Shown piece by piece: positions 1,856 through 50,577 of a DNA stretch of 64,000 nucleotides. How positions within the stretch are numbered: the stretch's first letter is position 1; each line of letters starts with the position of its first letter. Source of the DNA: Cavia porcellus (taxonomy: Eukaryota; Chordata; Mammalia; Rodentia; Caviidae); NCBI RefSeq assembly GCF_034190915.1, contig NW_026947507.1, forward strand, positions 20,437,501 to 20,501,500. Reading direction: 5' to 3'. Below the pieces are notes generated by a model. It searched no databases, was not told the DNA's origin, and saw nothing but the letters and a program-made list of their open reading frames with translations. The position numbers and the translations under genes were made by a program.

Positions 1856-1861
1856 TTTCTC

Positions 1862-2085
1862 AGCAATCCAAACACATATTTCAGGCTCAAAGCAGGGGTG
1901 TATTCCTCTAATTCACACTCTTGGAGGCTGAGGCATAAGGATCACAAGCTCAAACTGGGGAATTTAGCCACTTAGTGAGATTATTTTCAAAATTCAATAA
2001 ATAAAATACTTTCTTAAAAGGCTGGTGATGTGACTCAAAGTGAAGTTTCTTGGTTCAATCTCCAGTACTGTAAGAAACAAAAATA
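1862..2085 (+). repeat. Old B1-ID composite SINE
   Basis: A diverged B1 body (GGAGGCTGAGGCATAAGGATCAC near 1924-1946, then TTAGTGAGAT) is followed after an A-rich linker by a diverged ID body (GGCTGGTGATGTGACTCAAAGTG near 2020-2042, GGTTCAATCTCCAGTACT near 2053-2070). This order, 7SL-derived head then tRNA-derived tail, is the dimeric rodent SINE layout. A T-run at 1846-1858 precedes it. Confidence 0.6.
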
Positions 2086-2389
2086 CTGCTCTATTGATTC
2101 TGTTGCCATTTGTAACCATCCCCATTTGCTGAAAATTTACATAAAACTTCCAATCAAAATCTCTAACTTGTTCTGACCCAAAAATAAAGAGAGAAAATGA
2201 CTTGCATTAGGATAATTCAGTGTTATTGGGCACCATAAATTAAATATTGTTTAGACTATAAGATGGAGTTCTAAATTATCTGCCATCTAATGTAATTTTG
2301 TTTTTTAAAAAAAAATCTATTTTGAGCAGTTTCTAAGAGCACTATTTCTAAGAAACAGAAATGCAGTCTATCAGAATTCAAAAAGATTT

Positions 2390-2535
2390 TAAATTTACTT
2401 TTAACTTTTTCTTCTTTTTTTATTTTAAAGGGAGTAAAACAAAATAGAAGAAAGGAAACAAAACAGTGATAGGACAGTAGGAAATCCACAATTGTTACTA
2501 TATTGCACATTATTCTCTAAATAGTTGCCCAAACA
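2390..2535 (-). repeat. LINE-1 3'-UTR-like unit, minus strand
   Basis: The block reading GTAGGAAATCCACAATTG then AGTTGCCCAAACAAC recurs, diverged, at 3740-3835 and 3915-3975. It belongs to the LINE-1 sequence filling 2.4-6.0 kb. It is AT-rich and non-coding; a minus-strand frame through it has no recognisable product. Confidence 0.45.
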
Positions 2536-2539
2536 ACCG

Positions 2540-3070
2540 CCCCCAGACTTGCAAAATCAACCAAGCAACATGAATGTCAGGCTACTTCCCTGCTTCAGTT
2601 ACTGTTATCTCCACCTGCGATGTCTGGTTGCTTACAGGAGAGGGAGGCAGAGGTGGCTTCCTTGCTGGTTCTCCCTGGCCAACAGAGCCTCCACCAGCAC
2701 CCAGGAAGGCTGATAGCTTCCTTGATGCTCTTCCCGGGCTGGTGGGGCTTCAGCCGGCACACAGGGAGGCTGCAGGCTCCCTTGCAGCTTCTCCCTGGAT
2801 GGCAGAGCCTCCTGGCATGTGGGGTTTGGCTGCTGCATTGCGTCTTAGCTGTTTCTCCCTGCCCAGCAGGGCCACTGTCTTTGGTTTCCTTATTTTTGCT
2901 GAATTCCTGGATTCTCTCTCCCCATGGGCTTTAAATCTCAGTTCAGATCCTTCATTCATGCATAGGATTCACCTCTCTCCTCCTTTTCCTCATGTTGCTA
3001 TATTCTAAGAGCTGAACAACAAAACTTGGAGTTCTTTCTCTGTTGCTCACCACTCTGCCATTTTCCCAAA
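2540..3070 (-). repeat. Probable LINE-1 5' region with a 60-bp repeat
   Basis: A GC-rich block bounded on the right by TTGCTCACCACTCTGCCATTTTCCC (about 3041-3065). On the minus strand this reads as the NNATGGCAGAGTGG-type start seen in LINE-1 5' ends. It contains the three-copy 60-bp repeat listed separately. Overlapping frames in all directions arise because 60 bp is a multiple of three; none resembles a known protein. Confidence 0.4.
2658..2837 (-). repeat. 60-bp minisatellite, three copies
   Basis: Copies begin at 2658 (TTCCTTGCTGGTTCTCCCTG), 2718 (TTCCTTGATGCTCTTCCCGG) and 2778 (TCCCTTGCAGCTTCTCCCTG), so the period is exactly 60 bp. On the minus strand the repeat reads as 20-residue units beginning EALPSREK, EAPPAREE and EALLAREN, with no recognised protein family. 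It probably belongs to a LINE-1 5' UTR. Confidence 0.75.
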
Positions 3071-3189
3071 AGTCAAAATTGATTTTTCTTAATAGGAATT
3101 TGTTGCCACTTCACCTCTTCAGAATACGACCCTAGTTTTCAAATAAGTCTCAGAAATGATCATTAGCGATTTTTTAAAAGATATTTTAT

Positions 3190-3690
3190 TATTGACACAA
3201 TGACAGCTTCTGGGAATGCATCGGTCACATTGTTCTGTACTCATTATGAAAAAGAATATCTAGACACAGACTCACCTTTCCCAGGGTGCATTGGGCAGCT
3301 GGGCTCTCCCTCGGGAGTGCCTGCCCATCCACAGGTGTCTCTAGGAGGTACAGGCAGATGTGCCACCAGAGAACACTGGATAGTCTTCCACCCGTGCTGG
3401 AGCATCTCACCACACTTAAGGCATATAGTGCATAATCAGGATGCAGGTCCTGCCTTTCCCCAGGGAGTGTGGCACCTGGTGCCCTGTGGTGGTGACCCTG
3501 TCCAGCCATGGCACTCATCCCAGGTGCTGCCACACTCACTTGCTAGCTTGTGCCAACCTGCTCAAGGCACTATCATCTTGCTGTCCCTCAGTAGCACAGC
3601 ACTCCTGGGCCCTGCCTGGTGGCAGTGGATGTGGGGCCAAGGCCAGGAGCAGGATACCATGAGTGCAGCCCTTTCCCCCTCCTCCCACTT
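3190..3690 (-). repeat. GC-rich block, probably LINE-1 5' UTR derived
   Basis: This moderately GC-rich, non-coding block is joined at about 3695 to the AT-rich tandem units. The junction sequence (ACAGAATAAAGCCAA) reappears inverted at about 9636-9650 beside another GC-rich tandem pair, so GC block plus AT unit is a recurring pair. Assignment to LINE-1 is an inference from context. Confidence 0.35.
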
Positions 3691-3699
3691 CCAACCAAA

Positions 3700-4075
3700 C
3701 AAAATAAAACAGAATAAAGCCAATAAAAATACAACAATGAGAGTGATACAAGACTTCAAAACAAGATAATAGGCAATCAACAATGGTTACCATAATATAC
3801 CTCGTTATCTTCAATATAGCTGCCCATATCACCAGACCTAATAAAATTAAACAAAACAAAACAGAATACAAAAAAAAAAAAAACAATGAAAATGATACAG
3901 TACTTCAAAGGAACAAAATAATAGGAAATTAACAATGGCTACCACAATGCCTTCAAAACAGTTGTCTAGACCATCAGAAAAAATAAAATTTTAAAAAACA
4001 GAATAAAATAAAATATAAAAAAGAATCATAAAATTAACCCAATAATACATAAAATTAACCCATTAATACATGAAT
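3700..4075 (-). repeat. Tandem AT-rich units of ~140 bp
   Basis: Two diverged units lie head to tail. The first (about 3700-3838) contains AATAGGCAATCAACAATGG and CATATCACCAGACC. The second (about 3839-3980) contains AATAGGAAATTAACAATGG and TCTAGACCATCAG. A partial third unit follows, with the direct repeat ACATAAAATTAACCCA. They resemble the LINE-1-like unit at 2390-2535. Confidence 0.55.
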
Positions 4076-4399
4076 TAAGTTTCTTCTTCACTTCAGTTGT
4101 TATCTTTTCAGAAATTTCAGGTGTGTGACTTATAATTTATAGTATGTTGGTGTCTCCTGAACTTGTTCTGTGTGGGCTGCAGGTCTGAGATTGTATTTTG
4201 TGTCTTCATTTTGCTGTTTTCCTGTGTTCCTCTAAATCAGCCCATTGCTGCATCCTGGGTGCTTCCAGCATTGGCTGCCAGTCCCTCAATGTAGTAGACT
4301 GGATTAGGCACCTGGCTTCCTCTAGTCTTTAGTTCCTGGAGTGTAGAGAGTCACGGGGCAGTGGTTCACCAATGCTTCACCAATGGTATCAGGGTCGCA

Positions 4400-4565
4400 G
4401 GGTATGGCTTCTTCTTTGGGTCCCCACTGTGCTTGCTGGATCTCTCTAGGCCTCTCCAGGCTGCTGGCTCATGGCTTCAGTGTGACTTCTTCTCTAAGCT
4501 GGCACTTGGTTTCTGGATTTCTTTGGGCCTCTGCTGTACAACCCCAAGGTATGGCTTTTTCCTAT
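4400..4565 (-). repeat. 78-bp imperfect tandem duplication
   Basis: Two diverged copies start at about 4408 (CTTCTTCTTTGGGTCCCCAC) and 4486 (CTTCTTCTCTAAGCTGGCAC). Each runs to a GGGCCTCT/AGGCCTCT core. The block sits within the LINE-1-derived segment and is probably part of a 5' UTR array. Flanking 4076-4399 has no recognised feature. Confidence 0.5.
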
Positions 4566-4604
4566 GAACTCAATTTGTTCACCTGTTTGGTTCAACTCTG
4601 ATAT

Positions 4605-4800
4605 TTATCTTTGTTCATTTTCTGTCTAGTTATCTCTTTCTCTGTGATAATGGGGCCTCCTGTTATAACCATATTATTATTGCTCATTTGATTTTTCATG
4701 TCTACTAATAACTGTGATATATAGTTAGATGATTCTTTATTAGGTGCATATATATTTATGACTATTATGGCATTTGTGCTTTTTCCAGTTTTCTCACTGA
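4605..4800 (-). pseudogene. LINE-1 ORF2 endonuclease-region fragment
   Basis: The minus strand is homologous to the early endonuclease part of LINE-1 ORF2: the plus strand carries TTAGGTGCATATATATTTATG (about 4740-4760), antisense to the conserved NIYAPN-type coding block, after a region antisense to the GDFN block. It is heavily diverged with stops and directly abuts the ORF1 start fragment, so ORF1 C-terminus and the ORF1-ORF2 junction are missing. It cannot encode an active enzyme. Confidence 0.5.
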
Positions 4801-4819
4801 CCCCATCAATCCTGTGTTA

Positions 4820-5272
4820 TTCTTCTTTGCTTCATCTTATAGTAACTGGATTGATTTCTCATACTCTCTTGCTAATTTTTTTTTCTGTCTTCAAGATCTA
4901 TCTCTATTGATTTCTATCCTTTCATTTGCAGAATCTGTTGCATATACTTTCAGTGGAGCTTTTAATATCCTGGATCTCTGTTTGGATCTATTTCACAGAT
5001 TCCATTTCTCTCCTACATTGGGCATTTTTTTTTGTTTCCATCTTTTTCTAAGCTCATCTATTATTTGTATCTTCTCTATTATCTTTGAGCATCATTTGTA
5101 TTTGTGCCTTACAGATCATTTTCTCTGTAGCCTTTTCCACTTGTTTTTTCAATTCTGTTATCACTTCACAAAATTCCAGTGTTTGACTTCCAACTTCATC
5201 CATCTTGTTGGGTTCTAAGGTGCGCTGGGGGTTTGGGGGTTTGGGGCCTCTCTGTGTCTTGGCATTCTTCAC
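4820..5272 (-). pseudogene. LINE-1 ORF1 N-terminal fragment
   Basis: From the ATG at 5272 the minus strand reads MKNAKTQRGPKPPNPQRTLE, then a lysine/glutamate-rich helical stretch (ITELKKQVEKATEKM) typical of the LINE-1 ORF1 coiled coil. ORF1p is the RNA-binding, trimeric chaperone of LINE-1 retrotransposition. The frame stops at 5054 after 72 residues, and related sequence continues brokenly to about 4820; RRM and C-terminal domains are absent. The start lies downstream of a monomer array on the same strand, as in rodent LINE-1 elements. Confidence 0.6.
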
Positions 5273-5705
5273 CTTGTTTTTTTTTTCTTTTATCTTCTAT
5301 GTTGATGTCTCCTAGCCTCCCATGATATACAGCTGTACCACTAGTATTGAGGTCTTTGTCAAGAAAGAAAGGAGATGTCTGAGCCACAGAATGTCTTGCA
5401 GATATAGTTGGTTCTTTATAGCTATCCCAAGAACCTATTTTCTCCTGGTGTTTACAGCTCTGTGATAATGTCCATGTTATGTCCCAGAAATATGCTGGAT
5501 ATAGAGCCAATCATTGCCTCTGGATGTGGTGGCTGGGACTGGTTTTCTATGGGTGGAGTTCTCTATAGAGTCTAGCTCTTATGTCATCTGAGCTGCTTAA
5601 GATGCTTCCCTGTATTGGCCTAATTACTTTGGCCCCCAAAGATGTGTCTGTGTCTGTGCACCAGGCTGCTGTCCTGGCTCTTGGGGTTCCAGTCAGTCTC
5701 ATACT
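5273..5705 (-). repeat. LINE-1 5' UTR, non-monomeric tether
   Basis: This segment lies between the ORF1 start and the monomer array. In rodent LINE-1s a unique tether occupies this position. It has no open frame of its own that matches a family; the minus-strand frame at 5196-5510 runs out of phase into the ORF1 region. A G-run lies at about 5727-5736, just past it. Confidence 0.45.
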
Positions 5706-6045
5706 CTTTCAGCCAGCCCTGCCATGGGGGGGGGGGTAAATGAAGGAGGCCCAGATCACATATTCAGTCTTCCAGTTGGCCTCACCATCACAGATGTAAC
5801 AGAGGGGCACAGAGCACAAACTCACTTTCTCCCAGCCAGCTAGCCCTCTGGGATGCAGTGAAGGAGGTATAGATTGTGACCTCAATGTCTTCCAGCCAGC
5901 TCACCCTCTGGAATGTAATGGTGGAGGACAGAGTGTGAACTCTGTCTTTCAGCTGGCCCAGCTATCAGGGATATAATGGAGGGTACAGAGGGTGAACTTA
6001 CTTTCTTCCAGCTAACCTGCCTTCCAGGATGCAATAATAAGTTAA
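5706..6045 (-). repeat. LINE-1 promoter-type monomer array, ~60 bp, about 5.5 copies
   Basis: Five and a half imperfect units of about 58-62 bp follow one another. Each begins with a CAGCCAGC/CAGCTGGC/CAGCTAAC core, then a CTCTGGGATGCAGTGAAGGAG-like core, then GTGAACTC...CTTTC. Examples start near 5711, 5772, 5836, 5895, 5950 and 6010. The array is upstream of the ORF1 start on the same strand, as LINE-1 promoter monomers are in mouse and rat, but those monomers are much longer (about 200 bp or more). Confidence 0.65.
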
Positions 6046-6604
6046 CTTTTATAAAAGTTGTCTAACAGCAGAAAAAGTCTAATAAGATTTTAAAAATATA
6101 TTTAATCCTTATCTAAAATTCACCTTCACCCTTGCTGTTTCATAAACTCTAGAGTAAATAAATTCAAACTGTCTTCTGAAAAGCATTTTACAAGATGCTA
6201 TTTGGCAGTACATATATAAAACAAGATGCATATAAACCTAATATTAGAGAAAATAATTTTAATTATAGAAATAAATGTATTGCTACATACTATATTTACA
6301 GGAAGTTTTGCTAATAAATAAAATTAAGACATCATTCACATTAACAGATAAAACATGCTATTTTTCAGGTTACTTTCACTCTGCTTCTTGGATCTTCATT
6401 ATATGTATTGAGGCCTTAACAAATACTTTGGATCATAAAGATGATGGTTATATATGAAGAATCAGAAGAATAATAAACTCAAATGAATATGAATATGAGA
6501 TCACTGAAAATTTGGACTTCCTATCTATCTAAATACATACATATATATATATATAAATACTTTATTTTACAGAATTTCATTTTCCCATTGTATTTTTTAT
6601 TATT
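6046..6604. other. AT-rich stretch, nothing recognised
   Basis: Flank of the LINE-1 5' end. It contains a short (TA)n at 6540-6555. Plus-strand frames at 6275-6457 and 6483-6686 are short and AT-driven, without recognised homology. Confidence 0.45.
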
Positions 6605-6621
6605 TTTTTTTATTTCTTTTT

Positions 6622-6692
6622 TTGGTACCAGGGATCAAACTCACAACCTCAAGTTTGCCAGGCAGGTGCTTGTGCCACTGAGCTAAATTTCC
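6622..6692 (-). repeat. ID-type SINE (tRNA-Ala derived)
   Basis: The plus strand shows the reversed body GGTACCAGGGATCAAACTCA (B-box side) to TGCCACTGAGCTAAATTTCC (A-box side). On the minus strand this reads as GGAAATTTAGCTCAGTGGCA..., with the tail toward lower coordinates. The oligo(A) is degraded to T-rich sequence at 6596-6621. Confidence 0.8.
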
Positions 6693-6980
6693 TTTTCCTC
6701 TTTTTTTTTTTTAACATGAAAGAAAAATGAACTTCTTTTGTTTAATCCACTATTATTTTGCATTTCTCTATTACATGCAGCTAAATTCAAATCATACTTG
6801 AGAAAGTGGAATTGGTTAGTCAATAATATCAATTAGTCAGAGCCTTTTAGTAGTCTTCAAATATAATTATCTATGTTTTCTTCACCCAAATAATAATATA
6901 TTTAAAAACTCAGTCCTTATTTATAGTAATTGCTATAGGCAGTGTTGCTGTTATTTTGGCTAACCCATTACAATTTCTGT

Positions 6981-7127
6981 CTTTTTTTTTTTATTTAAGA
7001 GGAAAAAGAGAAAAACACAAAACAAAACAAAGCAGTGTAAGGTTACACATAATACAGAACTACAAAAAAAACATAACAGTAAGAAATCACCTTTTAATAG
7101 ATTACATATTATCATCTTGGAAATAAG
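6981..7127 (-). repeat. Short 5'-truncated LINE-1 3' end
   Basis: Starting with a T-run (poly(A) on the minus strand), the sequence matches almost base for base the reverse complement of the 3' terminus of the LINE-1 at 51985-52156, including AAGAGGAAAAAGAGAAAAAC and CAAAGCAGTGTAAGGTTACA. Only a few substitutions and an A-run length difference separate them over roughly 145 bp. Homology stops at about 7126 (CTTGGAAATA). Confidence 0.85.
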
Positions 7128-7621
7128 TACTACCTCATTAATATCACATGCTGTTTAGTAAAAAGTTAATGTGTGTATGTTAGCTGCAACATTTAATTTC
7201 TTTCTGCAATAGCATGTATAATGGTGATAATGGTAAATAGTAAAGATACAAACAGGAAATCAAGCCCTGCTTCAAGAAGTTCACAGCGTAGAAACCAGAC
7301 ACAAAACTGGTCCAATCAACACTAACTGTGGTCCAATCAACAACCACTCCCAACTGTCTTTCCTTAGCAACAGATCCCCCAAATAATTTTGGTGCAGGTG
7401 AAATCAAGCTGATCTCAGAGAACACAAGCTCTTTCTCATTCCCCAGTGAATGACTGGTCTAACCAAGTATTAGAATTTTACCTTCCTTGGACAATTAATG
7501 GATTGTGTGGACATTTACTTTTTCAGATGAGATATAAAAAAATCTGTCTCTTTTCCAGCCTTTTTTTTTGATTTGAACATTGACATGATGCTATTGTTGT
7601 TATAGCAGCTATCTAGTATTG

Positions 7622-7645
7622 ATCAAGGATAGGCCAAGAAAACTT
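7622..7645 (+). repeat. Outer arm of a split inverted repeat
   Basis: ATCAAGGATAGGCCAA (7622-7637), followed by GAAAACTTT, is the reverse complement of 8827-8842 (perfect over 16 bp) and, with one mismatch, of the adjoining AAAGTTTTTTT at 8818-8828. It pairs with the right arm at 8794-8846. Confidence 0.75.
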
Positions 7646-8270
7646 TAGAAATGTTGTGAGTCTGCCATTATTAGTGCATTATATGCATTAATTTAGTTAC
7701 ATAAAATTGTGTACATTTTAGCCACTGATTTTCTGTTACTGGCAATTTATTTCTAATATAAATGCATAAATACATGCATGAAAATATGAGATTCTTGAAA
7801 TGCTAAAGAATGAACAGAGGCTCAAAAGAACAGAAAGAAAAAAGTCTAACTCTGTTTAAAGTGGTCAAGAAGGCTAACTAAAAAAGGTAAGATTTGAAGT
7901 TTTAGACAAAAATGAATTTCTATGCCTAAAGCATAAATAGACATAACAACACATTCAAACAGATATGCACAAATAAAATGATGGAAAATCACATATATCT
8001 CAAGAATCATGGATTTATTTTATACATGAGAGACAGAACCATTTTAAATTTGGTAATGGTGGCATTAGATTTTGTGGCTTACAAATATTATACTAACACT
8101 ATTATTTACAGGACACTAGGATTTCATACAAACCACCAAAAAGATTTCTGGTCTGTAGACTTAAAACATAAATGGTCTGAAACCATACATAATTCAACTG
8201 TCTTGCTACCATGAGGAGACTTCTAGGGTTGCCAGAGCTTACTGCCTGGAGATGAAAAAAGCTAGTACAA

Positions 8271-8296
8271 TTAAAGGAACTGAGTAACAATGATAT
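8271..8296 (+). repeat. Inner arm of a split inverted repeat, 26 bp perfect
   Basis: The 26 bases starting TTAAAGGAACTGAG and ending CAATGATAT are a perfect reverse complement of 8794-8819. Together with the arm at 7622-7645, the two left-side blocks correspond to one continuous block on the right, 8794-8846. Confidence 0.85.
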
Positions 8297-8793
8297 ATAG
8301 GATATTCATCACCAAAAAACAAAATAATGTGTACATTTCTGCAGGCCCCAAACTCTTCTTGAATACTGGATAAAAATGAGAAAGAGATAGTGCTGTGGTT
8401 TCTGTGTTATACTGGAATAGCTCTGTTGTTTTCTGGTAGACATAGATCTTTTGTTTTACTAAACTGAGAACATTTAGTGAGGCAGTGACAAGTAAGTTTA
8501 CATGTTCAGACTTTCTGGTAGAGAGTCTTTCAAAATTTCTAGCAGCATGGGTGCACTTGCGACACTCCTATGGCAGCACTTTTGTGTTTAGTAGAAATTC
8601 CTTCTAAACAGCAATGTGGTTGATGCTGAGACATTTTTTAGGGCTGTTTTGTGTTTTTTTATAATCTTATAAATGTCAATAATTGTTTTGGCTTGTAGGC
8701 AACATAAAGTACAGAACACATTACCAATTCATGTAACTAAAATGCTAGGCAGAGAGTTTAAGATTGTATCATTCACAGTTTGAGTCTCCATTG

Positions 8794-8850
8794 ATATCAT
8801 TGTTACTCAGTTCCTTTAAAGTTTTTTTGGCCTATCCTTGATAGGCCAAA
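8794..8850 (-). repeat. Right arm of the split inverted repeat, with its own hairpin
   Basis: This contains the perfect 26-bp complement (8794-8819) of 8271-8296, the 16-bp complement (8827-8842) of 7622-7637, and a local hairpin: TTTGGCCTATC, loop CTT, GATAGGCCAAA (8826-8850, 11-bp perfect arms). Confidence 0.85.
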
Positions 8851-9383
8851 TATAATTCTTTCAAGAATAGGAATGCACATTTTACCAGCTCAAAGGATAG
8901 GGCTGGAGAGTAACACTGACAAAATAGTGATCATGAAGAAAACAAAAAGCAATAACAGAATAAAAATTAACAAGTAAGAAATTTTTAAAAAAACTTTTAA
9001 ATTTTATAAAATGGAGAAAAGTCAGACTGGAATCATTTGCCACCAGTGCCCAAAACTTTAAGAGACCAGTGATATAATAACTACATTAAACAGAAAAATC
9101 ATCATGATCTCACTATCCTGTAATGTGCATATGTGAAGAAAAACAGAAAAATAGTCTCATAAATACCAAGATTAAGAAGACAATTTACAAATTTAAAAAT
9201 TAAAGAAAAATTACAGTCTTTTAAAAAACTAATCACAATTAAGAGCTCAAATGCAGAAATTAATATAATTTTTAAAAATGTATTAAGCAAAGAAATCTGA
9301 ATATGGTTTTGAAAATAAACATGACAAACTAATTTTTAGAAGACAGGCAACATAAAATGGTAGTTATAAAACCTAAAAATTTG

Positions 9384-9610
9384 CCCTGGTAAGTGACTGT
9401 GGTGTGGCAGACTCTGGCCCTTCCAGGTGGAGAACCACCAGCAGCGTGTTGGAATTTAGGATGCTGGGAATCTAAGCGAGCACCTCCCCTCCCTGGTAAA
9501 TGGCTACAGTGTGGCAGATTATGGCCCTTCCAGGGGGAGAACCACCGGCAGCTCCTGAGATCCCCACCATGACAGAACTTAGGACGCTTGGAATATCCGG
9601 TAACCTGCTG
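9384..9610 (+). repeat. ~107-bp tandem duplication, GC-rich
   Basis: Two diverged copies begin at 9384 (CCCTGGTAAGTGACTGTGGT) and 9491 (CCCTGGTAAATGGCTACAGT). Both continue through GTGTGGCAGA, TGGCCCTTCCAGG and GGAGAACCACC. They are followed at 9636 by GGCTTTATTCTGT, the inverted form of a junction at about 3710, so this is probably another LINE-1-related 5' UTR piece. The 97-residue minus-strand frame here is a by-product of the repeat. Confidence 0.7.
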
Positions 9611-9719
9611 TGAAGTTTTCACTATACAATCTTAGTTGGCTTTATTCTGTCTTGTTCTGTTGTATTTTACTACTTTCAAAATAAAATTTAAAAAAATACA
9701 AAAAAAACCCCCTAAAAAT

Positions 9720-9954
9720 TTTAGTGTTTTTTCCCCAGAAGCCTTAATTTAGGAAGAGACCAAAGGTATAATAATTTTCTCATTTTGTAGATATACTCAA
9801 TAGATATAACTTGCCTCTTGATATTTAGGGGAAAATGGATTCAAAAATATTACTGAGAAATTGACTCAAAGTCATTTTTGTAATTTAAAAGACAAGTGAC
9901 AACAAATTTTGAAACAAAACTTTAAATTCCAAGTTTTATGTTAAAATACAGTGC
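9720..9954. other. AT-rich stretch, nothing recognised
   Basis: A/T-rich sequence between the tandem pair with its AT-rich tail (9620-9720) and the MaLR LTR. No coding or repeat signature recognised. Confidence 0.4.
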
Positions 9955-10343
9955 CTGAGTCACTTTCCTTATTGCTGGAACATAGTACCTGACACTCGAA
10001 CTACAAGGAGGAAAGGTTTATTTTAGTTTCCAATTTGTAGAGATTTCAGTGCCTAGTCAGCTGGCAGTGTGTAGTCAGCCTAAGGCAAGGTAGCATAGCA
10101 CAGGGCATGATGTAGGGAAAGCTGCTCATCTAATGGCAACTAGGAAGCAGATAGAGAAGGAAGAAATCCCAGAGATAAGACCTGCCCCACCAAGTTATGC
10201 TCCTAATGACCTGCCTCTTTCTACCAGACCCCATCTCTCCTAATGTCTCATTTAGCTAGAGCATTGCTATGACAATCATCCTTCAAAATCCCTGCCTGTG
10301 ATCACAGGAGGTTTTGGGGGACATCTTGATATGAACCATAACA
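9955..10343 (-). repeat. MaLR-type LTR, minus strand
   Basis: On the minus strand the element starts TGTTATGGTTCATATCAAGA at 10343 and ends near 9955 with the typical MaLR tail (AATAAACCTTTCCTCC, then GTTCCAGCAATAAGGAAAG). It is a diverged solitary LTR of the ERVL-MaLR superfamily; no internal sequence was found beside it. Confidence 0.7.
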
Positions 10344-11461
10344 TATACCATAGGCAAAGTAGATATAAACATTTATATAAAATGTTTTAATATATACAGA
10401 CAATTGATGGTTTTGAAAAACATAGTCATTAAAATGATATGTTACAGTTGTGTGCTTTAAATGAAAATTTACATATATGCATACATCTATGTACAAATAT
10501 TAAGCGCTAAAAAATGTATCACAAGCTAACAATTGGTTTTTCACAGTTTTAAGACTTAGAGAAATGTAATTGACTTTTTATTTTCGTAATTTTAATAATC
10601 CATTTAATCAATAAATATTTAATCAAAAACTACATGCTAGGCAAGTACTGAAGAAAAAACACAATAGATAGAAGTCTGTCTTTCATTTGTATAAGAGGGA
10701 ATTAAAAAGTAATCAAGATAAATATATAACGATATATAAGATAAATTTGTGGTATTGTATAGATAAAAAATGGTGCAGAGTAAGAGAATTGGAGGTTCTG
10801 GAAATAGAGCCCACATTACAATCTTTTAAAAGATGGTATGGGAATACTTCACATAAGTACTGATATTGAACAAATAGTTGAAGGAGAAAAAGCAAAATAC
10901 AAAAATAAATGTGAAAAATCTTGCCAAATACAGGGAATAGTGAAAGCAAAAGTTCTCAGGCATGTTCCTGGAAGGTTTAAGAAATAGTAAGAAAATCACT
11001 AAAAGTGCCTAAAAATGTATAATTTAAAGTCAGAGATATAACAGCATGGTATGATTCAAAAAGATTTTTTAAACTTACTTTTATAATATTTTGAATTCTT
11101 AAAATTTCCTGTGAAATGCTTTGCCTTAAACTATCTCATTGAAAAATCTGTACTAAATATTCAAAATATACTATGCACTCAGAGCTATGCAAAAATCTTT
11201 ACACAATGAGGTGTGATTACTATTTGAGACAATATTTGAAAAGTAAAGAAAATTAGAAGAAGTTTTTAAACCATCCATTAACTAATTTGAAATTTTCTAT
11301 TTCTGCCATCCTGTAAGTCTAAATGACCATCATACTCATTGTTAAAATAGCCATAAATTATAAGGCATAAATAGGATTTTTTAAAAAAATGTTTACATCA
11401 GTTCATCTCAATGTGTGTTTTTCAGGTATTTTCTAATATAATTAATTTAGAAACTAGCTAC
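10344..11461. other. AT-rich stretch, nothing recognised
   Basis: Low-GC single-copy DNA. Short minus-strand frames (10302-10496, 10713-10949) are AT-driven and resemble no family that I recognise. Confidence 0.45.
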
Positions 11462-11578
11462 AAATGCAGACTTCTTGACCAGATCCTAAACCTAGGAAAT
11501 CACAATCTTGGGATGCAGTTTTTCAGCATTATCCCCAGATGATTTATATGCACAGTAGGCTTGAGAACTTCACCTAGC
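11462..11578 (+). repeat. MER5-like hAT DNA transposon remnant
   Basis: The pattern AAATGCAGACTTCTTGACCAG ... CCTAGGAAATCACAATCTTG ... CCCCAGATGATTTATATGCA ... GTAGGCTTGAGAAC matches the layout of the ancient non-autonomous MER5 family by eye. Strongly diverged. Confidence 0.45.
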
Positions 11579-12600
11579 TAGTAGCAGTAGAAATAATTTA
11601 GCATGAAACTACTTTTAACTTCTACTAACAAAAATTATATCCTTAAATTTCTGTCATCCTTGAGTTTAACTTTTAGGTGTGTGGCATAGTATTTTGTCTA
11701 ACCATTGTCATTATATGTCAAGTCATGATGCTCTTAAAAGCTTACATGATAAAATAGGTCACAAGTACAGCATTACCCTACATTAAAATCCTGGATTAGG
11801 TAGCAAATAGAAAAGGATCAGGTTCACAAAACCTGATCCTGTGATGGCAGTTCACAAAATGACCACTTTTACCAGCATAAATTCTAGTTTGATGGCACAA
11901 ACTTTATACGTAAGACTGAATATTATATATTAGAAAAAAGCAAGATACTAACTCTAAAAAGAGTGAGAAATATTAATGCAGTTATCTTCACCATCAATCT
12001 ATAGATATTTATTGTTATAGTCTCATACATTTAAACCATCAAAATAAAAATTATATATATTGCATATAAAATAAATAAAAGTTATATATATTGCATATAT
12101 ATAACTATGCAATTACATTTATCTACTTCCTATTTTTGCAACATGGAAATATTTTTTATTTCACTGAAGATGTAATCCATTTTACCTAATCAGCTAATTC
12201 ATAATATCTTCAGTGTGACCATTCTGAGAGTCAGCCAAAGAAAGAGGCGAAAAATCACAAATTCCATTTATAAACTAAGAAGTTACAAGTAAATATTTCA
12301 CTCAGTGAGCATTATAAAAGTAAATATTATTATAGAAGGTACAGAATTATTTCCTTAATAGAGCACGGTGAAACATGTACAACCCTGGTGTTATAAACAG
12401 ACTTACTCTTCATGAAGACTTGAGCTATGCTATAAATAGTTCTATAAGCCCAAGAGCCCTTGCTCCCTTCTAATTAATCTGGACCGTGAACTGCATTTTA
12501 GAAGTAAGTATTGGCAGCCCCCAAATATGTCTTAAATTTGCTAAGCAAGGATTTGTATCAGCTAATATGGGAGCTATGCATAGAAAATGTTTGTTGCTTA
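11579..12600. other. AT-rich stretch containing one hairpin
   Basis: No gene or transposon recognised apart from the hairpin at 11814-11840. AT-rich runs (TATATATTGCATATA near 12050-12110) occur. Confidence 0.4.
11814..11840. repeat. Inverted repeat, 11-bp arms, 5-nt loop
   Basis: AGGATCAGGTT, loop CACAA, AACCTGATCCT. The arms are perfect. It lies in unique sequence, with no T-tract that would make it a terminator-like element. Confidence 0.85.
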
Positions 12601-12607
12601 TTTATTA

Positions 12608-12631
12608 ATGGGTAGACTATTGTCTACCCAT
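12608..12631. repeat. Inverted repeat with GTCTAC core
   Basis: ATGGGTAGAC, loop TATT, GTCTACCCAT. Perfect 10-bp arms. The GTCTAC core is reused in the 44-bp palindrome about 100 bp downstream. Confidence 0.85.
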
Positions 12632-12734
12632 CAAAAATTATGTTCATAGCAATAAAACAGGAACCACTAGTCATGCCATTAGTTATGATTAGATATTATG
12701 TCCAAAAACCTACTATTGAAATATGGTAATGAAA

Positions 12735-12778
12735 TATGTCTACTCATATGTGTATATATACACATATGAGTAGACATA
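12735..12778. repeat. Perfect 44-bp palindrome
   Basis: The left half is TATGTCTACTCATATGTGTA followed by TA; the right half is its exact reverse complement, with no spacer (centre between 12756 and 12757). Pairing fails at the next base on each side. The sequence continues into further TATGTCTACTC-like and (AT)n sequence. Confidence 0.9.
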
Positions 12779-12808
12779 CATATATGTCTACTCTATCTCT
12801 ATAGACTC

Positions 12809-12833
12809 ATATATATATATATATATATATATA
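12809..12833. repeat. (AT)n microsatellite
   Basis: About 12 uninterrupted AT units next to the palindrome, then an imperfect TACATATG continuation. Confidence 0.9.
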
Positions 12834-12861
12834 CATATGTAAATATATAGACAGAGAGAGA

Positions 12862-12989
12862 GTTATTTTTGAGACAGAGTCTCACTCTGTAATTCTCACT
12901 ATGCAGCCCAGGCTAGCCTCAAACTCATGGAGAACATGCCTTGGCCTCCCAAGTGCTGGGATTACAAGCGTGCGCCACCACATCCAGTC
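12862..12989 (-). repeat. B1-type SINE
   Basis: The plus strand reads TTTTTGAGACAGAGTCTCAC, then CCCAGGCTAGCCTCAAACTC, CCAAGTGCTGGGATTACAAG and GCGCCACCACATCCAG, which is a B1 element in reverse. Moderately diverged. Confidence 0.85.
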
Positions 12990-13149
12990 ATTATTACATT
13001 TTAAAGGAGTTTATTTATTTAGTAGTGTATTGTAATTGAAAGTAAAGCTTCAAAAGTAAAAAAGTACATGTACATAACCACCTCAATAGATGACCAAGTC
13101 CAATGGCATGACGTCCTCATCTTGGTATTTCTCCAATTCTAAGACAATC

Positions 13150-13280
13150 ACTTGAGTCTTGTTAGGATGCAGAGTGGGCCCCTCATCAGAAATTCTGATT
13201 TGGCAGGGGTGGGTGTGACCAACCCTAACGTAATCTAAAAGCCTAACAAACTCTCCAGGGAACTACTGATAAGGTTGATC
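13150..13280 (-). repeat. MER5-like hAT DNA transposon remnant
   Basis: GGATGCAGAGTGGGCCCCTC, then GAAATTCTGATTTGGCAGGG and AACAAACTCTCCAGGGAAC, follows the order of blocks in the MER5 family. Family assignment is by eye and the strand is tentative. Confidence 0.4.
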
Positions 13281-14438
13281 TAAAGATGCTAATAACAGAT
13301 CTATAAGTGGTATCTAGTACCAAAGTGAAAGAAAGCCTAGAACATAAATGTACCCAATTTTAAAAATGCATCTAAGTATAACAATAACTAGACTTCAGAT
13401 ATAACTTCTAAAAGGCACCTAACAAGCAATTTATAAAAGGAATATTCTTAATATCTAATCATAGATTTCACGGTCTGTGTACACTTATGTACCACAGAGT
13501 GCAGTGGAATAAAGAATTTCTAAAGTAGCAGATCACAAATCACACAAAAAGCTTTGCAGCAAAACTTAAATTGCACTAGTAATCAAGCTAATAAATTATG
13601 CTGTGGGAAGATATATTTAAACTAATATTTAGTAAACTTTTAATATTAAATAAAACATTTGTGTGTACAATTATTCTAACTACAAAAATGATTTAAATCT
13701 AAATTATTCAAAAATTTTAATTAATCACTTGAAGTATAATGAAAAATAAAATAATGTTGGTAATATATTTTACAACTTTAGAGGAGCAGCATGATGCTAT
13801 ATGTCAGAACCTAAGATTCTAGATGAATTTTCCTAGTCTTAACTTTGAGAAACAAAATGTTTGTTTGTTGTTCTCACCTTAATAATAGTGTTACATTAAC
13901 TGGTCTCTAAGGATTCTTCTAGCTTAAATTCTTAAACAGCTTCTGCAAACCTACTGTCATGTTAATCTTTAAGAAAAGTACTGTATAATTCTTTTCATTA
14001 AGGGTCACTCAAAATGCATTTTAAGCCAAACAACTGTGTGTTAGCTATTTCTTGTTAACCAATTATTCAGTTTCCAAGATTGCATGTGAAACTGTTTGCA
14101 TTAGAAAATTTAAAACGTGCTATTTTATAGCACATTAAACATGAGTGATTTGTTAGTAAGAATTACTTTCTACTTTCTAACTTGAAAGTGAATTTTTGTA
14201 TGTGATATGAAATTGAACTTATTATACATACCTGTAAAGAAGCTTTCCTGGAATACTAGTACATGTTCACAATTTAATGGGTCAAGAATTCAAAAAAGAA
14301 GCCAATGCCTAACCATAAGGAAAACTGAGAAACTTTAATCAGTTCTCTATCTTTGAGCATTTGAATTTGTGAAATCGTGTTCAGTAAATGCCCACTGACA
14401 CGGAAATTTATTTCAAATCACACTTCACACTTCATTTT
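13281..14438. other. AT-rich stretch, nothing recognised
   Basis: Single-copy AT-rich DNA. No frame longer than about 60 codons with any recognisable character. Confidence 0.45.
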
Positions 14439-14477
14439 GTGTGTGTGTGTGTGTGTATTATATATATATATATATAA
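14439..14477. repeat. (GT)9 plus (TA)n compound microsatellite
   Basis: GT units at 14439-14456 are followed by TA units at 14460-14477. Confidence 0.9.
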
Positions 14478-14673
14478 TAGCACATGTACATTACTAAAAA
14501 GTAAGATCTTGAACACTATATATTAAAATTATTTCATTCAAGTAGCTGATAATATGACATGTGGATGCCAAGTGCCAGTCAGCCGTAGCTCCAAGTTCAG
14601 ATTTTTTCCTTCTGTTGTTGCAGTTTAATCTGTTATAAATGTTTAAATTTCCCTTAAATTGGTAATATAACTG

Positions 14674-14849
14674 CTTTTCACTGATTTTTTTTTTTTTTTT
14701 TTGAGATGGGGGTCTCTCAGTGCAGCTCAGGCTGGGCTTGAGCTCACTTTGTTGCCCAGGCTGGTCTTGAACTCTCAAGGATCCTCCCACCTCAGCCTCC
14801 TGAGTGCTGGGATTACAGGCAGGAGCCACCATGCCCGGCTTTTCACTGA
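14674..14849 (-). repeat. B1-type SINE with target-site duplication
   Basis: The element proper is about 14685-14838 on the minus strand: a T18 run, then GAGATGGGGGTCTCTCAGTG ... TGCTGGGATTACAGGCAGGA ... CCACCATGCCCGGC. It carries the internal duplication (AGCTCAGGCTGGGCTTGAGC followed by CCCAGGCTGGTCTTGAAC) of derived B1. It is flanked by CTTTTCACTGA on both sides (14674-14684 and 14839-14849), a perfect 11-bp target-site duplication, so it is a fairly recent retrotransposition. The 123-residue minus-strand frame crossing it is not a gene. Confidence 0.95.
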
Positions 14850-17185
14850 AATTTGATGAAAACACCTTGAACTTTCTCTTCTACTGTGACAGCTCATGCA
14901 TTGGCATTTACTCTGAAATCTTTCTAGTAAATCACAATGGGATTTTTTTCTCTTTCAGTATGTAAAGGCATTGTACAGCTTTCCCTACCAACTTATATTA
15001 CGAACTTTACAAGTCTTTGTTGAGCCCTTTAAATGAACTCAATTTTTAAAAAGTTTTATTCTGTGTTTTGTTTCTCTGTGCAGCAGATTCTTTGGGGAAT
15101 TTCTAAAATTCTCTGTAGGTATCCATATCTAATTTCTTGCTCACAACTCTCTAAGGTACACTCTCACCAACAATGAGAAAACAATCACCATATTATTATA
15201 ACAGATGCTTTGTTATTATAACATCATGCCTTGTTGGAGGATGGAGAGTACCAACCAACTCTTAGTTTAATGTTTCTGATACAAGAGAAAATAGCAGTCT
15301 GAGTTAAGAAATTCCATTCACCTAATATAATTTTTATGATTGTAAATGCTCTAAATAAAATCTGTTTGTGAAAACACACTGAAAGTTATATGGTATCACT
15401 TTGGTATTTCAATCTGATAAATGAAACATATATAAAAATAAAATGAGATAACTCAGTGGTGGTAGAAAGTTAGCTATAATGCGTGCATATAATATGCATC
15501 GTTATGAATAGATGACTGATGTGGTTATTCAATAAAGTTAATATCCTTCTTTGCATATATCAGATTTCAATAAATTCTGGAATATAGGAAGAAAATGTAA
15601 ATTCTTCAAAATTGTTGGAAATTCCATTTTAGTATTCATTACAATTTTTAGGAAAATTTGAGGAATTTACATATCCTTGATTAATAATGGCATCATAAGC
15701 ATTCATATTGGACTTTGATCCATAGGGAAAAACAAATGTACATACAAAAGCAAACATTAAACAGTTCTTCTTCTTTTCTGATAAAATTAAAAATGTCCAT
15801 TCTACACTCAATAAAATGGTTACCAGGTAGATTTATAGTAAACAGTAACAACACATTGCTAAGCTCTACTCTTTCCTCTGCTGGGAGCAGAGGAATTTAA
15901 AAACTTAGTTTTCTAAGCTAAATTAACATGCTACTTTCTTAAAATAGTTTAATATACCAATATATAATTATAAAAAAGAATGAAGAATTTCAAAAGTTTC
16001 AAGTACACACACATAATGTTTTCTTCAGAGTTGGCCACAATTCTTTTAGGCATTTCTATTATTATCAACATACGAGAAACTCTGATCATTATAGATAATG
16101 AAACTCAACTAGTCTTTTTTTTGTCCTCACTCCAGAAATGCGATTTTTCTTTCCATGAATATTTTCTGAAACAAGTAATTGCTTTGTTTCAACGTAGAAT
16201 ACCTTCCAGGAAACGTAATGCATTGACCTAAAACTATCATTTGTACCATTAATCTCTAAATAATCCACTAAAGCATGTTACCCAAAATTCTACTGAATTG
16301 GCTGTTTTTTGTAATCATTTAATTATTATATTTAATTTTAGATCACAGACCTGGAAAAGTTGGCAGACCACTTGTTTTAGACTTCTGCTTTCAAACAAGT
16401 AACCTCTAACTACATCCATTTTGTACGTGCTTGGGGACTTAAGACAGAATTACAAAAAGATAGAATGTTGTTTTGCAAATGCAAGTTGTAATCACCATCA
16501 GGACAGCATCAGTTAGTTTCCCTGAAGGTAGTGATAAGAAAATTGACAAAGTCACAACTGCACATAATCATATAATGTTTAAACATCTGTTGTATTTAAG
16601 TCTACAAATCCTCATAACTGATTTTCATTGATTTTGTACTTACTGTTATTCAGCAATGATATTAGAGTATTAAAATGGGCAATTATAATCTGTTGTTGAA
16701 CTTTACATTGACACTATTTCACACCTTTTAGGGTTTGCATTTAGTTAGGCTTCTTTTAAGGACATTTGTCAAACACTTAAAAGTGTAATCGCCCCAAACT
16801 TCTGTTGAACATATACATGTACAATAATTATGACTTACTTTTAATATATGTTTTAACTGTTTAATTTCAATGCATTTTAAAAACTAATATAGTTACCTAA
16901 ATATTTTTGTTCCATTAACTTGGAATGCGAAAATGTCTATTTGGGTGCAAGACAAGGAAAACTATTTTTTATGAATCACTGAACACACAACATACTTCTT
17001 CATACTCCAGACCACATTTTCCCCCCTGGACCACATTTCATCAAAGCTTTCTTAGAGCAGCCCTAACATTCAGATCACCTGCAAAGGTTTAATCTGTGCA
17101 GAAGCAGTTGACAGGCGCCGTGAACAGAATGACAAGCCAGGCTCCACACGTACTGAGAGCACAGATCGGGGTTTCTGGAAGTGGC
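14850..17185. other. AT-rich flank of the CpG island
   Basis: No repeat family or exon recognised. If the minus-strand exon at 17426 is real, this is the start of its first intron. Frames at 15629-15811, 15715-15900 and 15980-16231 are short, AT-rich and without recognised homology. Confidence 0.4.
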
Positions 17186-17425
17186 CTTGTTTCACATTCC
17201 TGTGGCAGTTCACCCACAGACACGCCGCGTGGGATTCAGGTGTGTGACTACGACGCGGGGCTCTCGCCGACCGACCGGGCACCTCGCGTCGTGGGCAGAG
17301 CCCCGCCGGGCGCAACAGCACGCACGCGGCGGTGTCAGGGCGAGCAGAGCCCCCTACGCGACGCCGCAGCGGCTCCGGAAACACACTGCCGGGCTCTCAC
17401 ACCCGCTGGCTCGCGGGCTCCTTAC

Positions 17426-17560
17426 CTGTGGGCTGCTCGGCTGCGGACAGCGCTCGGTGCTGAAGCGAGTGTGGCGGGAGTGCGAGCTCCGCCCGCGCGC
17501 GGCCTCAGAGTCCCGCTCCGCCCGCCCAGCTTTGCCTCGCCCCGCCTCGCCTGAGCTCTC
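17426..17560 (-). other. Putative first exon of an unnamed gene (minus strand), 5' UTR
   Basis: On the minus strand the sequence reads ...GCCGAGCAGCCCACAG|GTAAGGAGCC, a near-perfect splice donor with the last exon base at 17426 and the GT at 17425-17424. It lies just downstream of a GC-box cluster, so transcription would begin around 17480-17600 and run toward lower coordinates. The exact start cannot be seen. A minus-strand frame is open from 17685 to the TAA inside the donor, but it starts upstream of the GC boxes and is probably not translated; the exon is best read as untranslated leader. No downstream exon was found in the 17 kb to the left, implying a long first intron or an end outside the window. 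Confidence 0.6.
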
Positions 17561-17671
17561 AGGGGCGGGGCGTCCGGGCCCGCGCCTTCCCAGGGGCGGG
17601 AAGCGCGCGCCTTGAACCGGACCGCATCGCCCCGTGGGAGGGGGCGGCTCTTAGGTATCGCCCCCGCGGCC

Positions 17672-17679
17672 CACGTGAC
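17672..17679. promoter_or_regulatory. E-box CACGTGAC
   Basis: A palindromic CACGTG core with a 3' AC, the preferred form for USF/TFE-type bHLH-zip factors, 20 bp from an inverted CCAAT box. Function is inferred from motif and location only. Confidence 0.6.
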
Positions 17680-17693
17680 AATCATCCTAGTCG

Positions 17694-17701
17694 CTGATTG
17701 G
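17694..17701 (-). promoter_or_regulatory. CCAAT box (inverted)
   Basis: CTGATTGG on the plus strand, CCAATCAG on the minus strand: the standard NF-Y recognition sequence, placed upstream of the minus-strand GC boxes and first exon. Confidence 0.6.
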
Positions 17702-17765
17702 AGAGACTGGCAAGAGGAGGTGGGAACAGCTCGCGACCACTGGAGACTCGAAGTGGGTGGGAGAA

Positions 17766-17846
17766 ATGGTTACCTGGCAACGCGGCGGCAGCCCGGAAGA
17801 CGAGGTTTCCAGGCGCTGGGATAAGGCTTCAGATCTCGGTCGGTAA
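17766..17846 (+). other. Small open frame, possible start of a divergent transcript
   Basis: An ATG at 17766 with a purine at -3 and G at +4 opens a 26-codon frame (starting MVTWQRGGSPEDEVSRRW) that reaches a weak splice-donor-like TCG|GTAATG at 17842/17843; the stop lies just past it at 17844-17846. A spliced coding first exon on the plus strand is therefore possible. Against it, the ATG directly abuts the X-box, which usually lies in promoter or leader sequence, and I recognise no protein with this start. Low confidence. Confidence 0.25.
17769..17781. promoter_or_regulatory. RFX X-box
   Basis: GTTACCTGGCAAC consists of two half-sites GTTACC and GGCAAC separated by one base, matching the X-box consensus (GTTNCC, 1-3 bases, RGNAAC; left half GTTACC). 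RFX factors bound to X-boxes near transcription starts drive ciliary genes, and also some others such as MHC class II. Here it lies within the CpG island, about 200 bp upstream of the likely minus-strand start and close to any plus-strand start. Confidence 0.7.
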
Positions 17847-17865
17847 TGAGATCGGAAGTTCGCGC

Positions 17866-20403
17866 CACCTAACATTCCATATCCTGTCTCTACTTTCTAG
17901 GAAAGTGAGGCAAATAAATCATCCTACCTCCTCAGGACCCTCGTCTTAAACCATCGCCTGGAATGTGAATGCAGAAATGCTGCCTGTCTTGCGCTTCTAA
18001 CTGCCTGATTGGGCTCAGCTCTCTCTGTGGGAGGACACAGTGGAAGAGATTGCTTCCTTTAATCGAGTTCTAGTCTGGCCTCTCAGTGATGCAAAATTGA
18101 CATTTTCCCTGTGGAATCTGGTTGAACAGTAATGTTTGATATTGACATTTCAGATTTTTTCATGTCTGAAACATCCTATCTACAGCCCTTATTCAATACG
18201 CTGTACACAAATAGGACAACTTCATGTGCTTGACATGTGGCCTACTTAAAACATCAATCTTTAATTACATGCCAAATCCTAAGTAGCTTTAAATTAATGG
18301 TCTGTGTCTACCAGGGAAACTCCTGAGACATAGCTCTTAACCTCCTGTGCAATAGATTTGTCTCTCTCTCTCTTTTTTTTTTTTTTTTTTCAGCATAGTC
18401 TCTGAAAAGGCCATTCCTCACCACTGCACTTACTTGATTTTGTAAATTAAAGTCAAAAGATGTTTCTTCTTGTGAGCAATAGACTAAGGTCATTTCTTAC
18501 AACTCTGTTTGCTATATTCTGACAAATGCCTAATAAGTACTAAGCCTTCAGTAAATGCTTGTTAGGTAAATGAATAAATTAGTGTATAATCTACTACACA
18601 AAATATAAGCATCAACTAAATATTCAATAATTTATTAAGTTCTAAAATAGAGTTATTAAAAATTATTGAAGGCAATTTCAGATGAAAGGGAATAGGGAGA
18701 AAGTTTTCTTCCAGTACACCCAGGGAAACTTCAGTAAGACTACTATTCTAACAGTGACTTGTTAGACTTAATAAATATAGGACTTCATCCATAGAAAAAA
18801 GGAATGGAATCATATAGTCTTAACTTCTGCACATGTGTCTTCCAATAGATTTAGGATTTTTACTCGTATTGAATTCACAAATGTGTTTATTGAGTCTTTG
18901 AATGAAACTAACATTAATTTTCAAATTCTCAAAACCATGATTCACCAACCTGCCTTATCACCCACCTCTTCTATGACGAGAAAATTTTTTCATATATTCA
19001 CATAAAATTGCATATAAATTGAGAAGATTCACAGTTTTAAATTTCCTCAAAGACACACGTCCCTAACTTACAAATCTTTGCTGGGTTGGGTCCTTGCTTC
19101 TGTAACGCATTTGCCTTTGCCCAAGTAGAAATAACTTGCCTTTGGTAAAAATATCCGTTTTTACTAATTGAGTTTCAAGCTATTGCACTCTTTTTATTTG
19201 CTCTTTCATTTACCTTGGTAATTCTTTACTACCTTTTTCCAGTTAAACTTGTTTCACATATAATTAAAAAAAAAAAGAGCATAGTGTTTTCATTCAGCAC
19301 TATCCTGCAGCTGTACTGGCTTAAGAGAAACAGCCTGCTTTCTGGGATTTTTTCAGCCTGTTATTAAACATAGCAGTCATAAAAATTAAATTATATGAAA
19401 TTATAATTAGAGTTTTAAAAAGTAAAGTAAATACTCAAAGCTTATCAATTAATTATTTCTCAATATTTTCTGCTTATCCAGTACTTGAGATTATTTACGT
19501 AGGTATTGCAGTGTATAGCAGAAGTACTACGTGATACTATACATTTCTCTCCAATGTGTTTAGTTGCATCACACTGGTACCTTGAAACTGAGGATAGTGG
19601 GCACATTTTTCCTTGAAAATCAGCTAATTCTACAAGTTAGGACCTAGTTTATGGTTCTGTTGAATGACTAGCCTAAGCTGTTTAATAAGATAGCTACAAG
19701 TAAAATGTAGTTATTTAAATGAATTAAAGTGAAATAGAATTTAAAATGTTCATCAATCACAGTAGTCACATTTCAAGTAATCAATAATTACATGCTGGTT
19801 GAGTATTCTATTAATGATGACAAATAAGGAACATTTCCACTATCACTGAAGTTCTGTGGATAAATTTCACCTTTCAGGACATGGAAAACATTTTCTGTGA
19901 AGATCTAGATAGTAAATATTTTATACTTCATAAGTCATTTGGTCTCTGACACAAGTATTACTTCTGTTGTGACAGATACTCTCTAGTATAAAATCCATCA
20001 CAGACAATATATAAATTAGTGAATATGACTAAGTCTCAAAAAGCTTTTTACATAAAATCATAAGTTAAGTTGGATTTGACCTAGGGTCTATAGTTTATAA
20101 TACAGGTATAAATTTAAGAAAAAAGGTAATACTAGTACAATTTAACTTTTAAAATGTGTTATAACTGCTGTACTATAAATAGCACAAAATTAAGAAACTA
20201 TCATTCTGATATCCCCAAAATTACTTATTAATTCTGCATAGAATTTGCTCATGATAAAATGAGATCTATGTATGCCTACATTTTAAAAATTTGTATCACT
20301 TATTAATGTGAAAAAACATCAAATGAAATTATAGTCAGTATTATACACATTTGGAAGCATAGATTGTCTACAAGTACCAAAATTTGGCAAATTTAATAAA
20401 TGC
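17866..20403. other. AT-rich stretch, nothing recognised
   Basis: Sequence right of the CpG island. It contains a TC/T-rich tract ending in CAG at about 18360-18393 and AT-rich single-copy DNA beyond. No exon with supporting splice sites and no transposon recognised. Confidence 0.4.
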
Positions 20404-40880: not shown

Positions 40881-40973
40881 ACAAGATACAAAAATGAGGG
40901 GCTGGGAATTTAGCTCAGTGGTATAAGCACCTGCCTTGCAAGCAGGCAGTTGTGAGTTCAATCCCTGGTACCG

Positions 40974-41007
<34 letters not shown>

Positions 41008-50075: not shown

Positions 50076-50577
50076 AGAAAAAAAGCTGTTTAAAATCTAA
50101 AGCAGTTTTATGTGAATCTCTTATCGCCTGGTCTCATTTTAATCTTGGCGGCAGGGGGGATGGGTTGGCGCGCACGGGAAACAAAAGGAAGCTGGCAGTG
50201 CGGTGCGGGGGAGAGGAAGCGCGCACTGGGAAACAAAGAGACGCTGGCAGCGCGGTTGGGGGTTAGCAGGAGAAAAGGAGGCACTGAGAAAAACTCTTAA
50301 AGACTGCAAGGGAAGAGCTGTTATCTCTTTAAGTGCAGGGAAGGGGAGGGATCCTGGAAGAGACAAAGGGACAGGGAAGCTGGCAGGAAAGGGGCACATT
50401 TTAATGCAAAGATAAGAGAGTTTTGTAAGCTTATCTGCAGTGTGATAAGCCATAAGTAGCTATTGTTTCTGAAGGGGACAGGAAGGAGTCCCCGAGATAA
50501 AATCTGGTGTGGGGTTTAGCCCATGGGGCTACAATCAGATGAGGCAACAGACCGTGGTCTGTCAGGATTTAGAGTCG

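Follow-up and report, generated by a model that had tools for sequence, protein, structure and literature searches.

In the mouse, Wdr17 is transcribed from two start sites: a common one used in brain, retina and testis, and a rod start with another first exon. CRX and NRL are both found at the rod start and neither is found at the common start (PMC5480877); the available part of that report does not mention an X-box for either. The protein has been described as being of unknown function and highly expressed in retina and testis (PMC10250166). A shorter WDR17 transcript is present in human retina, with coordinates not tied to the guinea pig exons (PMC1802077), and methylation of human WDR17 DNA serves as a marker in anal cancer, in a report whose available text contains neither 'CpG island' nor 'promoter' (PMC8564631). 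In the accessible part of another study, WDR17 is listed only under motifs other than the X-box (PMC1173081). RFX factors activate many genes of the cilium. They accept spacers of 0 to 3 bases in their sites (PMC2797782), spacers of 1 to 3 bases were used for X-boxes in PMC2375033, and the X-boxes of proven human RFX targets lie mostly between -500 and +500 of the transcription start site (PMC5838959). In mouse testis, the motif at the centre of RFX2 sites has 14 bases (PMC4498915). The mouse Spata4 promoter is bound by RFX1, which acts there as a repressor, and fires in one direction (PMC3795713).

We analysed a 64-kb stretch of guinea pig DNA (the window; C24:20437501-20501500 within a 3.145 Gb genome), in which unprefixed positions up to 64,000 are counted from its first base. 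The window has a background GC content of 0.37 and a CpG observed/expected ratio of 0.20. Scanning in 200-base steps revealed a CpG island at 17061-17980 (GC 0.64, observed/expected 0.95), a long unique stretch above GC 0.5 and a ratio of 0.6; its core at 17190-17865, which served as the query, has 676 bases, a GC content of 0.69, 82 CpG and a ratio of 1.02. A DNA search of the 3.1 Gb genome with the core returned the core itself as the sole match. The preliminary description had counted only one CpG island in the 64 kb; the island at 17061-17980 stands, but three further stretches exceed GC 0.5 and a ratio of 0.6. Of these, 49301-50360 is the largest and represents a dispersed repeat that has at least 68 matches, itself included (a lower bound, with 40 of 394 candidates scored); 59141-59420 and 61981-62200 are short and weaker than 17061-17980. 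The region 17061-17980 is the only strong island in the window shown as unique sequence. A CpG-rich repeat was rejected as an explanation of 17190-17865, which matches only itself, in contrast to 49301-50360. The preliminary description had named a CpG-rich repeat without conservation outside this species as its own refutation; this is contradicted by the single genomic match and by the rabbit and marmoset matches given below. The best other full-length copy of the repeat at 49301-50360 is 88% identical.

An Rfam search over the window gave one match, a weak tRNA at 40904-40967 (32 bits), which is followed by a run of A at 40976-41006; the two together are probably a tRNA-derived SINE. The region 58000-62200 contains ORFs that include a CCHC zinc-knuckle-like stretch at 60208-60465 (plus strand), its GC-rich parts resemble by eye the repeat at 49.3 kb, and its appearance is that of an old retroelement. 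Another strong CpG island lies 200 kb to the left of the first (C24:20254741-20255780; L003:7241-8280), with 98 CpG, a ratio of 1.15 and an included run of N; from the human gene order we assume that it is possibly the SPCS3 promoter.

The gene at this locus is WDR17. Among the six-frame ORFs listed for the 200 kb left of the window, WD40 exons were found on the minus strand. A tblastn search guided by a WDR17 protein sequence placed 28 pieces of more than 60% identity, all on the minus strand and in order, a set from which lower-scoring WD40-repeat cross-matches and two weak plus-strand matches were left out. A segment of 819 residues from the guinea pig protein matched P0001 ('WD repeat-containing protein 17 isoform X1 [Cavia porcellus]') at 100% after rounding. 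With P0001 itself as the query, all 27 pieces of at least 70% identity lay left of the window, on the minus strand and in order, and covered 1254 of 1314 residues. The first coding exon has its start codon, which opens the peptide MAW, at C24:20428580; an exon with a second start, MSQ, begins at C24:20421354, and the last exon ends at 20344307. Pfam assigned propeller families to the protein (25 of 44 matches listed), and its relatives among the 120 matches listed came from fish, birds, reptiles, amphibians and mammals. An unnamed or novel gene was rejected on the mapping of the guinea pig WDR17 record to this place in 27 ordered minus-strand pieces, and the 'orphan' promoter of an 'unnamed' gene in the preliminary description thereby acquires a name.

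The island carries a consensus minus-strand splice donor, CAG/GTAAGG (17420-17428), with 17426 as the last exon base and the intron running from 17425 downward. The sequence CAGGTAAG has one copy on either strand of the 64 kb, two in all. From the donor, at C24:20454926, the distance in the 3' direction is 26,346 bases to the MAW start codon and 33.6 kb to the MSQ exon, so exon 1 sits 5' of the WDR17 coding exons and on the same strand. We place exon 1 at 17426-17685 (minus); its 3' end comes from the donor, its span from the rabbit and marmoset matches, and its 5' end, the transcription start, is approximate. From the donor and the exon order, positions 1-17425 (minus) would be the window's part of the first WDR17 intron, with the MAW and MSQ exons both left of the window. 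The donor at 17426/17425 is thus as first described, the donor and the rabbit and marmoset WDR17 records support the proposed 5' end of a minus-strand gene with an exon ending at 17426, and the very long first intron suggested at the same time would measure 26.3 kb if it ends at the MAW exon and 33.6 kb if it ends at the MSQ exon.

Support for this exon came from WDR17 records of other mammals. Two rabbit proteins (P0005 and P0121) carry 71 residues before MSQ and two marmoset proteins (P0033 and P0129) carry 89; in both species the extension ends in AN and lacks the MAW peptide. In the guinea pig, the MSQ exon begins with GCA AAT ATG behind a TTTTTTCAAG acceptor. The rabbit extension matched 17638-17429 on the minus strand by tblastn (33.1 bits), ending 3 bases short of the donor, and the marmoset extension matched 17665-17513 (37.0 bits) and 17685-17443 (35.4 bits), also on the minus strand and ending 87 and 17 bases short of it. 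A similar first exon joined directly to the MSQ exon is therefore seen in four records from two species, all of them predicted proteins from GC-rich DNA. When the extensions were shuffled, 1 of 100 rabbit peptides scored as high as the real one (best 33.5 bits) and none of 100 marmoset peptides did (best 30.4 bits); 28 of the shuffled rabbit peptides and 27 of the marmoset ones had their best place in this island. Owing to GC-richness on both sides, the real extensions also scored 29.6 bits (rabbit) and 29.3 bits (marmoset) in another CpG island, 200 kb farther left. The rabbit match by itself is weak, and the argument is carried by the marmoset match together with the common strand, the closeness to the donor and the lack of any residues between the extension and MSQ.

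The same comparison was extended to 188 WDR17-type proteins (P0176 fell outside the parsing pattern), of which 15 have an N-terminal stretch of more than 30 residues before MSQ, the length above which extensions were compared. Only the four rabbit and marmoset records among these 15 matched the island. Five others (P0084, P0094, P0099, P0177 and P0185) carry the MAW peptide, the extension of the vole protein P0178 gave a weak match elsewhere in the window (31473-31387, 31.6 bits), and tblastn found no convincing place for those of P0043, P0055, P0089, P0168 and P0169.

Exon 1 is best read as a non-coding 5' UTR, because the guinea pig frame that joins MSQ contains no ATG in this exon; the frame opens after a stop at about 17651. 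The rabbit match lies in the frame that continues into MSQ, and the marmoset peptide aligns partly in that frame, through a stop, and partly in a second frame, so the peptide has not been kept as such. A protein-coding guinea pig exon 1 was rejected on these two grounds, the missing ATG in the MSQ frame and the marmoset alignment in two frames with one passing through a stop.

We consider it highly probable that the island is the common, TATA-less CpG-island promoter and first exon of guinea pig WDR17. Transcription would run leftwards on the minus strand from a start within approximately 17480-17760, and exon 1, ending at 17426, would be joined across an intron of 26 to 34 kb either to the MAW exon or, with that exon skipped, to the MSQ exon; in the latter case translation could begin at MSQ. 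By analogy with the mouse gene, the island may represent the common WDR17 start. As at the mouse common promoter (PMC5480877), whose start site is presumably orthologous, exon 1 in the island would lie apart from the MAW exon. The surroundings of the MAW exon (C24:20428580-20428640) are CpG-poor, with 2 CpG in 1001 bases. Just upstream of this exon lie TTACTTTAG, a possible acceptor, and TGCTGAC, a motif that we take to be NRL-like; with these two features, the MAW exon could be an internal exon or a rod-specific first exon.

The island contains the usual elements of such a promoter. GC boxes (GGGCGG) are present on the plus strand at 17563-17568, 17594-17599 and 17642-17647 and on the minus strand at 17489-17494 and, as two overlapping copies starting at 17518 and 17522, at 17518-17527. 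A single E-box (CACGTG) is located at 17672-17677 and a CCAAT box, its position read from the sequence, at 17697-17701 (minus). The GC boxes, E-box and CCAAT box reported earlier were all recovered, and a motif scan of the island found no TATAAA. Basal activity would be provided through the GC boxes, the CCAAT box and the E-box; the candidate factors are presumably of the SP1, NF-Y, and USF or TFE types.

At the right-hand side of the island, 17769-17781 reads GTTACC-T-GGCAAC, an X-box with inverted half-sites GTTACC and GGCAAC and a 1-base spacer, exactly as it had been reported. The strict form of the motif (GTTRCC N0-3 GGYAAC) matched only this site in 264 kb (the window and the 200 kb to its left), and allowing one mismatch added a single further site, at position 2102 of the window. 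When the island was shuffled 3000 times with its dinucleotides kept, the strict form never appeared. The loose form, GTNRCC N0-3 RGYAAC, appeared in 16 of these 3000 and has four sites in the 264 kb, 17769-17781 among them. These figures overstate the surprise somewhat because the motif was chosen after being seen. The exact 13-mer has 115 copies genome-wide, approximately one per 27 Mb, and some of the 100 copies listed sit in evenly spaced arrays; the 13-mer written backwards has one copy genome-wide, which is not a fair comparison since this control contains a CpG. The X-box is 343 bases from the WDR17 donor, so any island start upstream of the donor would lie within 500 bases of it, and starts in 17480-17760 would lie about 0.3 kb or less away.

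RFX control of WDR17 through 17769-17781 is a plausible prediction from these letters, and we lean slightly towards an RFX dimer at this site that would tune WDR17 in ciliated or male germ cells; the effect could be up or down. The site shares with RFX2-target promoters of spermatogenic and ciliary genes the inverted GTTGCC-type half-sites near the start (PMC4498915, PMC2797782). Like RFX2-target genes, Wdr17 is high in mouse pachytene spermatocytes (PMC11117263), the cells in which RFX2 rises (PMC2797782). The X-box has 13 bases compared with 14 in the mouse testis RFX2 motif (PMC4498915) and, unlike the targets named there, WDR17 is absent from the main text of that study. RFX binding at WDR17 is a prediction.

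These differences lend weight to a reading that keeps the same WDR17 promoter and treats the X-box as accidental or idle, with the GC boxes, CCAAT box and E-box alone driving the gene without RFX. Our literature search found no paper linking WDR17 with an X-box, and the papers naming both RFX and WDR17 gave no RFX binding at WDR17 as judged from their titles and the beginnings of their abstracts. Neither WDR17 nor Spata4 is named in the main text of two reports on RFX targets (PMC5838959, PMC4498915). The 1-base spacer departs from the 14-base RFX2 peak motif (PMC4498915), and X-boxes alone predict poorly, having been equally frequent in Drosophila control genes for the most degenerate consensus (PMC2375033). 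Set against this are the lack of the strict motif in all 3000 shuffles, its single occurrence in 264 kb, its typical place near a promoter and the coincidence of Wdr17 and RFX2 in pachytene spermatocytes (PMC11117263, PMC2797782), and we regard an idle X-box as a real possibility that nonetheless falls on the doubtful side.

The X-box is 0.34 kb from the WDR17 donor, near the border of the island on its plus side, and its role might instead concern a plus-strand transcript beginning around 17790-17860 and leading away from WDR17. Bidirectional firing is common among CpG-island promoters, and the preliminary description had allowed for a divergent second transcript. Nothing of the kind was found: no exon or gene was recognized by eye among the ORFs of at least 70 residues in the 46 kb between the island and the right end of the window, the nearest plus-strand gene found is of the GPM6A type, at 20755328 and beyond, some 300 kb off, and the neighbouring Spata4 promoter is one-way in the mouse (PMC3795713), which together make such a transcript improbable. 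An assignment of the island to GPM6A itself, as a far upstream promoter in place of WDR17, would draw on the GPM6A-type exons on the plus strand to the right. GPM6A is known for long 5' introns. The 300-kb separation, the consensus donor on the minus strand of the island and the rabbit and marmoset records that tie the island to WDR17 leave this assignment with very little credibility.

The gene order around the island is ASB5 (plus), SPATA4 (plus), WDR17 (minus), the island and the GPM6A-type gene (plus). We take the plus-strand ORFs left of WDR17 to be SPATA4 and ASB5; Pfam identified ankyrin repeats in the ASB5-like ORF and no family in the SPATA4-like exon. Proteolipid-family exons (PF01275) were found on the plus strand of the right side at 20755328, 20769500 and 20783730, and these exons are presumably GPM6A, a name given by place. 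GLRA3, ADAM29, GPM6A, WDR17 and SPATA4 are listed around one human variant (PMC12680644), and the guinea pig order fits this list if, as it appears to, the list follows the chromosome.

The presumed SPATA4 is the next gene beyond WDR17 at the same locus. The mouse Spata4 promoter resembles the WDR17 island in being a CpG island without a TATA box, with SP1 sites and an RFX site near the start (PMC3795713). It differs in that its RFX site is a 14-mer with RFX1 binding demonstrated by ChIP and reporter assays, whereas the WDR17 X-box is a 13-mer and a predicted site (PMC3795713). In the guinea pig, an X-box-like 14-mer, GTTGCCATAGGAAC, lies 20 bases before the presumed SPATA4 ATG (C24:20331780-20331793; L011:4280-4293). 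The strict scan missed it because it is two mismatches from the strict form.

Indirect hints suggest that WDR17 may have a ciliary role. It appears in the list from an ARL13B purification that also contains IFT-B proteins, alongside importins, exportins and similar proteins (PMC3854969), and in a profile study it falls into one group with IFT140, IFT172 and further proteins of the coatomer type (PMC4773986). Counting against such a role, Wdr17-knockout mice are reported to be fertile, to be born in Mendelian numbers and to show no significant change (PMC11117263); the text of that report contains none of 'cilia', 'flagell' and 'RFX'. The arrangement looked for was that of IFT-A and COPI subunits, a pair of WD40 propellers with an alpha-solenoid behind them. 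When solved structures were searched by sequence, the best 60 rows were all WD40 propeller proteins. A model of crocodile WDR17 (1128 residues, 40 sequences) showed propeller strands and then paired helices, at a mean pLDDT of 61.9 and a pTM of 0.40. In Foldseek with this low-confidence model, the top matches were double propellers of ribosome-assembly proteins and of Gemin5, and IFT-A chains came at ranks 37, 43 and 44; in a second look with the weak model, a single propeller filled the listing and no IFT chain appeared among the best 50 rows, an absence that carries no information.

A wider proposal would join these strands: WDR17 as a direct RFX2/RFX3 target through the 13-base X-box, encoding an IFT-A- or coatomer-like transport protein of the cilium and sperm programme that is not essential in the mouse and forming with nearby SPATA4 a small RFX-governed block, while photoreceptors use a second, CRX/NRL-driven start. 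Tentative at first, this proposal is rather unlikely in full, because Wdr17-knockout mice are reported to be fertile (PMC11117263).

The WDR17 promoter described here is of the ordinary mammalian CpG-island type, and the gain is one of annotation and prediction, with no new mechanism. The X-box might explain part of the expression of WDR17 in testis and retina, and a strict X-box in the common promoter provides a testable reason to seek WDR17 in cilia and sperm.
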